A stretch of 64,000 nucleotides of DNA from Bradyrhizobium sp. 21 (GTDB lineage: Bacteria; Pseudomonadota; Alphaproteobacteria; Rhizobiales; Xanthobacteraceae), in contig NZ_JADPJG010000002.1 of the NCBI RefSeq assembly GCF_023073335.1, positions 62,001-126,000 on the forward strand, in the 5' to 3' direction. Position numbers and translations under genes: made by a program. This document shows positions 32,012 to 40,003 of the stretch, piece by piece. Every line of letters begins with the position of its first letter. Positions within the stretch are counted from its first letter, which is position 1. The notes under the pieces were generated by a model. The model was not told the origin of the DNA. It ran no database searches and saw nothing but the letters and a program-made list of their open reading frames with translations.

Positions 32012-33742
32012 TCAGCGCGCGTGCAGCAGCGCCAGCAGCACGACGACCGCGCAGGCGAGCGCCGCCGAGGTCAGCTTCCAGAACATCAGCGGGCTGCGCT
32101 CCAGGAGCGGCGTGATCCGCGTGTCGAGATAGGCCGGGTTGGGCGTGCGAAGTTCGTAGACGAACTCGGACAGATCCTCGTGCCGCTTGTAGGGATCCGG
32201 ATGGAGCGCGCGCCTGAGTGCGCCATCGACCCACACAGGCACGTTGTGGTCGCCGTCGGCCGGGCGATATTTGAGCCTCCGCACGTCGGCCTTTTGCCGG
32301 ATCCTGGCGATTTGGCTGCCGTAGGGAAGCTTTCCGGTGAGCATCTGGTAGCAAATCACGGCGAGCGAAAACATATCGGAGCGCGGCGAGCCGCCTTGCC
32401 CGAGAAAATACTCCGGCGCCGTATACTGGACCGTTCCCAGGATGTCGCCGGTCTCGTCCTGCGGCGCGGCCTCGGTCACGCCGGCCACCCTGACCGATCC
32501 GAAGTCGATGATTTTCGCCGTGCCGGTCTTGTCGATCAGGATGTTGTCGGGCCTCAGATCCTGATGCAGCATCTCCATGCGGTGGAAAGCGCGCAGGCCC
32601 GCGGCGATCTGCTCGACCAGTCCGCGGACGGTTTCGAGATCGGGGCGCGGATTGTCGGTCATCCACTGCGTCAGGGTCTGCCCTTCGATGAACTCGGTCG
32701 CAACGTAGAGGTAGCTGCGCCGTCTCGACTGTGACAGCGGCTTCAGCACGTGCGGGCTGTCGATCCGGCGCGCGATCCATTCCTCCATCAGGAAGCGCTT
32801 GCGATAGGCGGCATCGTCGCGCAGGTCGATCGACGGCAGCTTGAGCGCGACCGGCGCGTCGGTCTCCGCATCGACGGCAAGGTAGATATGACTGCGGCTG
32901 CTGCCGTGGATCTCCCGGACGATCCTGTAGCCGTCGAACATCGCTCGCGGCTCCGGCAGCGCCGGAAGCGGCAGTTCGGAGGTCCGGTTGAAGATGCCGG
33001 CGGGGTCCCGCTGCGGCACCGCATCGATGCGGAGGATCTGGACGGTGATGTTGTCGTCGCTGCCGCGCCGGTATGCTTCCTCGACGATCGCCTTCGCCGC
33101 TCCGTCGAGCTCGCCTGCATGTTCGCCGAGCGCGCTGGTGACGAAACGGGGATCGACGAATTCGTAGGCGCCGTCGGTTGCCAGGATGAAGGTATCGCCA
33201 GCCTCGATCTCGAACGCCTGGTAGTCGATCTCGAGCTGCGGATTGATGCCGAGCGCGCGGCCGAGATAGGTCTGCTCCGACGAGACGATGATCCGGTGGT
33301 CGTCGGTCAGCTGCTCGAGCGCCTTGCCGGCGACGCGATAGACGCGGCAGTCACCGACATGGAAGATGTGCGCGGTGGTCGCCTTGATGACCATCGCGGT
33401 CAGGGTGCAGACGTAGCCCTTGTCGCGGTCATAGGCGAATTGGCTCTTCCGCGTCTGCGCGTGCAGCCAGGAATTGGTGGCTTCCAGCACACGGCGGGCG
33501 GACGTCTTCACCGTCCAGGTTTCCGACGTGCAGTAATAGTCCATCAGGAAGCTCTTGACCGCCGACTCGCTGGCGATCTGGCTCACCGTACTGCTCGAGA
33601 TGCCGTCGGCCAGCACGGCGGCCATCCCCTTCAGGCTCAACAGCGGCTCCGCCGGAATGAGGACGCCGTGAAAATCCTGATTGACCGGCTTGCGCCCCTT
33701 GTCGGAGTGCTGCCCGATCGAAATTTGCAGCCCGCCGCTCAT
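32012..33742 (-). CDS. Fused PP2C phosphatase / Ser-Thr protein kinase
   Basis: About 576 residues. Residues 1-235 are a PP2C phosphatase: DKGRKPVNQDFHG, AVLADGISSS, HVGDCRVYRV, LATDGAYEF and RGSDDNITV supply the metal-binding aspartates. Residues 265-525 are a kinase: ALKLPSIDL (lysine), LHQDLRPDNILID (catalytic loop, HQD), IDFGSVRV (DFG). A single membrane segment (KLTSAALACAVVVLLALL) anchors the C-terminus, leaving both domains cytosolic. Proteins of this build recur next to nitrate assimilation genes in other proteobacteria. A control role in nitrate use is inferred. ATG at 33742 or 33754 is possible. Confidence 0.9.
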   Translation of the reverse strand: MSGGLQISIGQHSDKGRKPVNQDFHGVLIPAEPLLSLKGMAAVLADGISSSTVSQIASESAVKSFLMDYYCTSETWTVKTSARRVLEATNSWLHAQTRKSQFAYDRDKGYVCTLTAMVIKATTAHIFHVGDCRVYRVAGKALEQLTDDHRIIVSSEQTYLGRALGINPQLEIDYQAFEIEAGDTFILATDGAYEFVDPRFVTSALGEHAGELDGAAKAIVEEAYRRGSDDNITVQILRIDAVPQRDPAGIFNRTSELPLPALPEPRAMFDGYRIVREIHGSSRSHIYLAVDAETDAPVALKLPSIDLRDDAAYRKRFLMEEWIARRIDSPHVLKPLSQSRRRSYLYVATEFIEGQTLTQWMTDNPRPDLETVRGLVEQIAAGLRAFHRMEMLHQDLRPDNILIDKTGTAKIIDFGSVRVAGVTEAAPQDETGDILGTVQYTAPEYFLGQGGSPRSDMFSLAVICYQMLTGKLPYGSQIARIRQKADVRRLKYRPADGDHNVPVWVDGALRRALHPDPYKRHEDLSEFVYELRTPNPAYLDTRITPLLERSPLMFWKLTSAALACAVVVLLALLHAR

Positions 33743-33760
33743 CCTCGCCACCAATACAAA

Positions 33761-34645: not shown

Positions 34646-34778
34646 GTTTCCTTTTGCTCGTGTGAAAAGATAGCGCGGCGGTTTCGGACGGTGCCGTTGT
34701 CAGGACACTGCCTCGCGCGTACCGGCGAACCGGGAACGTACGGGCCAAAGGAATTCGAAATCTCGCATGGGATCGCGT

Positions 34779-34791
34779 AACGACGACTGCG
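34779..34791 (-). promoter_or_regulatory. Leader segment complementary to the 5' hairpin
   Basis: On the minus strand this reads CGCAGTCGTCGTT, the exact complement of AACGACGACTGCG at 34877-34865 in the same leader. Pairing would use the hexaloop and 3' arm of the 5' hairpin, so the two folds exclude each other. Confidence 0.5.
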
Positions 34792-34866
34792 CCCAATGGG
34801 CTCAGCGAAGCAAAATTGCTCTCCCCGAGTTTCGGCCTTTGCGGGCCTCAACATTTCGGTGAACCG

Positions 34867-34882
34867 CAGTCGTCGTTGACTG
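34867..34882 (-). promoter_or_regulatory. 5' leader hairpin with AACGAC hexaloop (nitrite transporter RNA)
   Basis: Minus strand CAGTC-AACGAC-GACTG: a 5-bp perfect stem with a six-base loop having A1 and G4, the features known to be read by ANTAR-domain RNA-binding proteins such as NasT, NasR and EutV. It begins about six bases after the predicted transcription start. Confidence 0.6.
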
Positions 34883-34897
34883 AGTGATGACTTCAAA

Positions 34898-34913
34898 AGC
34901 AATCCACGTGCCA
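34898..34913 (-). promoter_or_regulatory. Sigma-54 promoter of the nitrite transporter gene
   Basis: Minus strand TGGCACGTGGATTGCT matches the -24/-12 consensus TGGCACG-N4-TTGCW at every defined base. Start of RNA is expected near 34888, giving a leader of about 240 bases. RpoN promoters need an enhancer-binding protein, here most likely NtrC. Confidence 0.8.
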
Positions 34914-35185: not shown

Positions 35186-35203
35186 GACGCCATCGATGCC
35201 GTC
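35186..35203 (+). promoter_or_regulatory. 5' leader hairpin with ATCGAT hexaloop (nrtABC RNA)
   Basis: GACGCC-ATCGAT-GCCGTC: six-base arms with one internal C-C mismatch and a hexaloop with A1 and G4. It starts 27 bases after the first base of the sigma-54 element, exactly as the narK hairpin does, and the following TCCCTC context is also shared. Candidate NasT (ANTAR) target. Confidence 0.6.
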
Positions 35204-39867: not shown

Positions 39868-39885
39868 GACGCCAACGACGACGTC
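39868..39885 (+). promoter_or_regulatory. 5' leader hairpin with AACGAC hexaloop (narK RNA)
   Basis: GACGCC-AACGAC-GACGTC: six-base arms with one C-A mismatch, hexaloop with A1 and G4. The loop is identical to that in the nitrite-transporter leader. The hairpin starts 27 bases after the first promoter base, as at nrtA. Candidate NasT target. Confidence 0.62.
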
Positions 39886-39924: not shown

Positions 39925-39966
39925 GGCTTGGCCTCGGCGCGCGCCTCCTTGCCTGGAGGCTGAGCC
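39925..39966 (+). promoter_or_regulatory. Long hairpin in the narK leader
   Basis: GGCTTGGCCTC pairs with GAGGCTGAGCC (two G-U pairs) around a GC-rich centre that can itself fold as GCCTCC-TTGCCT-GGAGGC. Directly after it, CTGC-AACGAC-GCAG offers a second hexaloop with A1 and G4. No T-run follows. Confidence 0.45.
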
Positions 39967-40003
39967 TGCAACGACGCAGCGGTGAGCAAAGAAGGGATTA
40001 GCA

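Follow-up and report, generated by a model that had tools for sequence, protein, structure and literature searches.

The window, a stretch of 64,000 nucleotides from Bradyrhizobium sp. 21, carries on its minus strand a gene of the formate/nitrite transporter (FNT) family (PF01226; 33809-34645). The divergent neighbour of this gene and its leader is nrtA, and a fusion of a PP2C phosphatase with a Ser/Thr protein kinase is encoded directly 3' of it on the same strand (32012-33754, minus strand). The first-pass annotation had called the gene a nitrite transporter; the family assignment holds, while nitrite as the substrate is left undecided by NCBIfam, where the protein reaches 111.5 bits with FocA and 42.2 bits with NirC, each under its own cut-off. 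The protein is 96-97% identical to several Bradyrhizobium FNT proteins. Upstream of the gene stands the element TGGCAC-N5-TTGC (34899-34913, minus strand), which we take to be a sigma-54 type promoter motif, with a predicted transcription start at about 34887. It is followed by a hairpin, P1 (CAGTC-AACGAC-GACTG; 34867-34882, minus strand; -5.4 kcal/mol on its own), whose hexaloop AACGAC (34877-34872) lies near the 5' end of the leader and has both the A1 and the G4 of the NasT/ANTAR type. Among 148 FNT upstream regions that had been selected for having both elements, the -24/-12 element lies 12-19 nt ahead of the P1 core in 145, and this spacing puts P1 at the extreme 5' end of the predicted RNA.

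The loop and 3' arm of P1, AACGACGACTGCG (34877-34865, minus strand), and a downstream segment of the same leader, CGCAGTCGTCGTT (34791-34779, minus strand), are exact reverse complements over 13 bases, just as the first-pass annotation had described, and can form a long pairing of which the P1 segment is the 5' strand. When the loop and 3' arm were compared with the downstream leader the best complementarity scored 34, a value that 3 of 20,000 shuffles preserving dinucleotide composition reached (p = 0.0002). Repeated on the nrtA and narK leaders with 2,000 shuffles each, the test gave p = 0.57 and p = 0.68, in agreement with the earlier statement that those leaders have no comparable pairing. 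The hairpin in the nrtA leader (GACGCC-ATCGAT-GCCGTC; 35186-35203, plus strand) has a self-complementary hexaloop, ATCGAT. The narK leader has an imperfect first hairpin, GACGCC-AACGAC-GACGTC (39868-39885, plus strand), and a cleaner one of the NasT type, CTGC-AACGAC-GCAG (39966-39979, plus strand), shortly before the narK start.

The antisense feature is larger than the 13 bases first reported, which were correct as far as they went: nearly the whole NasT-type hairpin is reverse-copied about 80 bases later. This downstream copy, anti-P1, consists of CGCAGTCGTCGTT and a further AC (34777-34791, minus strand). In the predicted fold of the window leader the pairing extends to the 5' arm of P1, G34880-U34879 with A34778-C34777, and the TTAC tail of anti-P1 makes an extra pair with A1 of the loop, leaving the two 5'-arm pairs beside a bulge. 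In predicted folds of relatives (L105, L083 and L013, for example) the 5' arm is also paired and one loop A is bulged; a typical relative has the hairpin GTC-AACGAN-GAC (12 nt) and a downstream reverse copy GTC-NTCGT-GAC (11 nt, one base short). The segment 34886-34766 has a predicted energy of -49.5 kcal/mol, which none of 200 shuffles equals (z -4.19), and it folds into a multibranch domain closed by the stem of P1 and anti-P1; the stability of the full-length window leader is unremarkable (z -1.17). The fold has three further minus-strand hairpins: P2 (GGCC-CGCAAA-GGCC; 34834-34847), P3 (34802-34828), which lies within the closed domain, and P4 (GCCC-ATT-GGGC; 34791-34801), immediately 5' of the antisense copy. 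The P2 hexaloop CGCAAA lacks A1 and G4, and the window leader has no second A1/G4 hexaloop hairpin. The claim that the long pairing destroys the hairpin is borne out by these predictions: the two folds are mutually exclusive, and the free RNA is predicted to have the long pairing as its ground state.

The comparison with relatives began from 210 FNT upstream regions (80 + 30 + 100, the last 100 drawn from 120 listed places without a locus). A pattern of promoter and P1, with the P1 core GTCAAYGANGAC or a near variant, kept 148 regions, of which 143 were unique leaders: 141 from Bradyrhizobium and two, L031 and L032, from MAGs labelled with other genera. The 62 regions left out comprise 43 outside Bradyrhizobium and 19 inside, and the promoter pattern was too strict, several of those 19 matching P1-N60-90-anti-P1 (G015, G045, G047, G061, G070, G112, G114 and G119 among them). 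In the two MAGs, labelled Pseudolabrys and Rhodopseudomonas, two GGTC-hexaloop-GACC hairpins stand in tandem upstream of the FNT gene, some 19 nt from each other. Four groups, A (68 leaders), T (19), W (23) and D (33), were set by the sequence of the P1 flank and the promoter and not by phylogeny. Anchoring always yields a best place for anti-P1, so a copy was counted only when it scored 15 or more of 20 against the consensus. By that count 116 of 143 leaders have a recognisable anti-P1, at a distance of 77-95 nt from P1: 66 of 68 in A, all 19 in T, 20 of 23 in W and 11 of 33 in D. The P1-N60-90-anti-P1 core pattern is found once in the window's genome, at this leader, and in 176 of 265 Bradyrhizobium genomes, against 13 for the reversed control; among the matches listed, many places are FNT leaders and others resemble coding repeats by eye.

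The copy is not only present but conserved. An alignment of 43 representatives of groups A, T and W (A1; 44 were chosen and L032 was dropped) covers those three groups in the covariation scores, stem-pairing percentages and column identities given here; group D was omitted, its anti-P1 not being reliably anchored. Mean column identity in this alignment is 0.884 in anti-P1 against 0.715 in the region between it and P1, and the best 14-column window outside P1 (0.919) begins two columns inside anti-P1 and ends two beyond it. The 13-pair long stem has standard pairs in 91.7% of 557 cells, and a partner slid along the leader gives 17-50%. The middle pair, at loop position 6, is non-standard in 92 of all 143 leaders; among the 116 that have a recognisable copy the number is 77. 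Thus two mutually exclusive helices are both conserved in A, T and W, where the P1 stem is invariant, and group D mostly fails to show this.

The predicted energetics divide the leaders along the same line. The closed state has a probability above 0.5 in 58 of 68 leaders in A, 16 of 19 in T and 20 of 23 in W (94 of 110 together; 19 of 21 in W when L031 and L032 are set aside), and in 8 of 33 in D. The P1 hairpin state is favoured in 4 of 68, 3 of 19 and 3 of 23 leaders of A, T and W, respectively, and in 24 of 33 of D. Forcing P1 to form costs a mean of 3.3-4.4 kcal/mol in A, T and W, and some leaders (L083, L105) take other structures in full-length MFE folds. The duplex of P1 and anti-P1 is stronger than those at other windows of the same leaders, for example -20.7 against -10.6 kcal/mol in T and -14.6 against -11.2 kcal/mol in D. 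RNAalifold returns P1 only from the mixed alignment A1, and the long stem from T alone and from W alone. A second loop with A1 and G4 (such as ACCGAA or AGTGCT) occurs in many T and D leaders, and group A mostly has G4 only, by eye. Certain group D leaders, such as L024 and L193, have GCAATCGTTGC in place of anti-P1, which makes a better mini hairpin; their P1 stem is longer and the predicted balance of folds is reversed.

These distributions bear on the two-state switch proposed in the first-pass annotation, which had been staked on homologous leaders keeping the complementary segment along with the hairpin. In A, T and W they do so in 105 of 110 cases, at 77-95 nt; in group D, by contrast, the hairpin is kept, usually as the favoured fold, and the segment is mostly lost; and in outgroup leaders the NasT-type hairpin is kept with an antisense segment that is not significant. 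The switch interpretation is therefore partly supported.

Covariation adds little. It is low in power because P1 barely varies, and changes on both sides are seen in 1 of the 13 pairs. With a tree null (FastTree and a self-made parsimony-based simulation) the percentage paired in the long stem was as high in 16 of 500 simulations and the covariation score in 363 of 500; the corresponding shuffles of the covariation tool gave 12 of 500 and 21 of 500. When partners were swapped between leaders, a leader's own partner came out ahead only in W, where 29 of 2000 permutations did as well, and in the pooled representatives, where 19 of 5000 did; within A, T and D it had no advantage (1899, 1429 and 420 of 2000 did as well). 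Once sequence conservation is accounted for, the long stem covaries weakly, and the case rests on conservation and energetics, not on covariation.

On this evidence we consider it slightly better than an even bet that the FNT leader is a two-state RNA under the control of NasT, with the P1 site buried by pairing to anti-P1. The transcript would begin a few bases ahead of P1, and anti-P1 would emerge once RNA polymerase has made about 110 nt. Without NasT, P1 would open and pair with anti-P1 over some 12 pairs, closing the domain of small hairpins and burying the NasT site, which would be the off state. In the presence of nitrate or nitrite, NasT released from NasS would hold the P1 hairpin, the domain could not close and the gene would be expressed. 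As the output we favour, over translation control, an attenuation of transcription that would need no intrinsic terminator and might depend on Rho. We infer the binding of NasT, the direction of its effect and the output step in this leader; the model gives predictions that can be checked with few base changes.

Leaders outside the four groups suggest how such an arrangement might have arisen. The FNT leaders of Polaromonas and Methylobacillus (L053, L054, L055, L059) precede a homologous gene and share the P1 hexaloop hairpin, but they differ in having a second hexaloop hairpin (GGAT-AACGAC-GTCC in L055 and L059) next to or inside a strong hairpin that is followed by a long T run, the T runs being identified by eye. 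Another leader, from a MAG (L043), combines P1 with a strong hairpin that a T run follows, again by eye. In all five P1 is folded in the MFE structure and the antisense copy is not significant (p 0.07-0.74). The Azospirillum leaders L049, L056 and L057 have P1, no significant copy and no terminator in a simple scan. A reverse copy was not established beyond groups A, T, W and D, as judged on 13 leaders that include L031 and L032; the lowest values were p = 0.068 (L055) and p = 0.074 (L059). The combination of P1, second hexaloop hairpin and hairpin with a T run has the appearance, at the level of sequence, of a classical ANTAR leader, and a parsimonious story would have Bradyrhizobium lose the terminator and gain the reverse copy. 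We hold it as a tentative proposal, somewhat short of an even chance, that Bradyrhizobium rebuilt an ANTAR leader in this manner, the P2/terminator pair of the outgroups being replaced by the reverse copy, with P1 as the switching strand, burial as the off state and no intrinsic terminator.

The leader might instead be an ordinary NasT/ANTAR leader of P1 and P2, in which anti-P1 has no regulatory role and owes its conservation to something else, a function as a DNA site for example. We regard this as unlikely, though it is the alternative that fares best. P1 is conserved, and the P2 helix is supported in the 43 representatives, where none of 500 of the tool's shuffles reaches its covariation score; support is weaker with the tree null (42 of 500 for the score, 4 of 500 for the percentage paired). 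The weak covariation of the long stem points the same way, as does the conservation in group A, which passes beyond the complement into GCGATTCCC. However, an ordinary leader of this kind would have an intrinsic terminator as the competitor of P2, and none was found in the window between 34600 and 35340, nor by a simple scan in 134 of the 143 leaders; the terminator-like sites in the other nine are a lower bound, as the scan misses interrupted stems (L053 and L059, for example). Moreover, the conserved segment is complementary to P1 in a single register across A, T and W.

Alternatively, anti-P1 could act as a mini hairpin of its own, GTC-NTCGT-GAC, through a kissing contact between its loop and the P1 hexaloop (TCGT to ACGA) or through recognition by a protein, and the long duplex would then be a by-product of shared stem letters. 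The stem letters of anti-P1 are indeed the same as those of P1, the loops are complementary, the mini stem of three pairs is present in 92% of cells in the 43 representatives, and by eye GCAATCGTTGC, found in L024 and similar leaders of group D, could fold into a mini hairpin. Yet the mini stem is broken in the window, L097, L099 and L104, where GTC faces TAC or CAC and the long pairing is intact; it does not rise above the tree null (68 of 500 for pairing, 421 of 500 for covariation), and in A, T and W the long duplex is the one preferred by the energy model. We judge a mini hairpin doubtful as the functional element.

The read-out of the two-state RNA could also lie in translation, if the 3' part of the leader masked the ribosome-binding site and the switch relayed to it. 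The MFE fold of the window leader does pair UUCCUUU with the Shine-Dalgarno sequence AAAGGAA, and with P1 forced the mean accessibility of the ribosome site goes up slightly, from 0.30 to 0.38 in A, 0.54 to 0.62 in T and 0.35 to 0.42 in W. But a mean rise of 0.07-0.08 is small and the window itself moves from 0.005 to 0.009, so that masking, with little change between the states, was set aside as the read-out and translation control seems improbable. A leader peptide was also considered and rejected: an open frame ends over the FNT start in many leaders, but the opposite strand is open at almost the same rate (103/143 against 121/143), and few gap runs in group A (101 of 1222) have a length divisible by three. 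As for Rho, the excess of C over G after anti-P1 gives no usable evidence of a site; in the window leader its maximum is 0.10 against a 95th percentile of 0.15 for the 64 kb, and the means of the leaders' maxima (A 0.18, T 0.11, W 0.12, D 0.14) are window maxima that are not comparable with that percentile.

Least probable of all, and only barely credible, is that the complementarity in the window arose by chance and is common to relatives through descent alone: a nearly invariant P1 leaves little covariation to be measured and most single leaders of group A do not reach significance (p <= 0.05 in 1 of 68, compared with 18 of 19 in T, 13 of 23 in W and 5 of 33 in D), but against this stand the shuffle result for the window and the excess of identity in the anti-P1 columns over those between.

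Burial of P1 under the control of NasT calls for a regulator, and the window's genome contains just one ANTAR match, a protein with a receiver and an ANTAR domain encoded beside an NMT1_2 protein; as expected, these would be NasT and NasS, respectively. An ANTAR match is found in 259 of 265 Bradyrhizobium genomes. According to the available portions of the published accounts, NasT in B. japonicum is required for narK-lacZ expression during assimilation and for nitrate induction of nirA-lacZ (PMC4724949), and in B. diazoefficiens lacking NasT, in cells that had ammonium, nap, nos and nirA are down and narK is up under denitrifying conditions (PMC6759348). NasT also controls nitrous oxide reductase in Bradyrhizobium (PMC6759348). 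The accessible text of these two papers, the first being PMC4724949 and the second the RNA-seq study PMC6759348, does not mention the FNT gene or its leader. Its absence from the RNA-seq study counts against the two-state model, as does the rise there of narK, which carries a predicted NasT hairpin.

The leader resembles several known systems and departs from each. The narK RNA of Rfam (RF03032) has a consensus of GGCAC-UUGC followed by a hexaloop hairpin, and the window aligns with it at 34912-34845 over model positions 1-72 of 72; it differs in that the window scores 21 bits against a gathering threshold of 43.2 and in that the 72-position model ends ahead of anti-P1. There is no gathering-level match in the window, and the 16 sub-threshold places of RF03032 in the window's genome carry little weight, since 13 of 14 control genomes match at the same E-value. 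RF03032 itself looks like a sigma-54 promoter with an ANTAR hexaloop hairpin, and its 3' end, CGAC-AAAGAC-GUCG, could be an unannotated second hexaloop hairpin. Leaders under NasS-NasT in Bradyrhizobium and Paracoccus (nosR, nirA, narK, nasA) share the same kind of regulator and a NasT-type leader hairpin, but in the parts of the reports at hand they work through a terminator structure that NasT prevents (PMC6759348, PMC10620151) or through hairpins HI and HII (PMC5424462). A reverse copy of the NasT hairpin is not described in the consulted sections of those three papers, and a literature search on ANTAR and NasT leaders returned no title or abstract opening that describes one.

The two-hairpin antiterminators of the ANTAR family (EutV/eut, NasR/nasF) are alike in having a short leader hairpin with an A1/G4 hexaloop, a second hairpin and a nitrogen gene downstream, as the available excerpts present them (PMC3369931, PMC8934654). 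The same excerpts indicate that hexaloop positions A1 and G4 are important for EutV and that a single hexaloop has been proposed as the minimal ANTAR site (PMC3369931, PMC8934654), which would fit the missing A1 and G4 in P2 of the window. In eutP, however, P2 is embedded in an intrinsic terminator and P1 stays folded, to go by the accessible part of PMC8934654, whereas here no terminator was found and P1 can be buried by its reverse copy. Known accounts, as far as the portions available go, have ANTAR regulators keep a hairpin that competes with a terminator. If our reading is true, ANTAR proteins would have a second mode of action, in which the recognition hairpin is hidden under a reverse copy of itself and there is no terminator, and reverse copies of hexaloop hairpins may be worth hunting for in other nitrogen-gene leaders that seem to be without a terminator.
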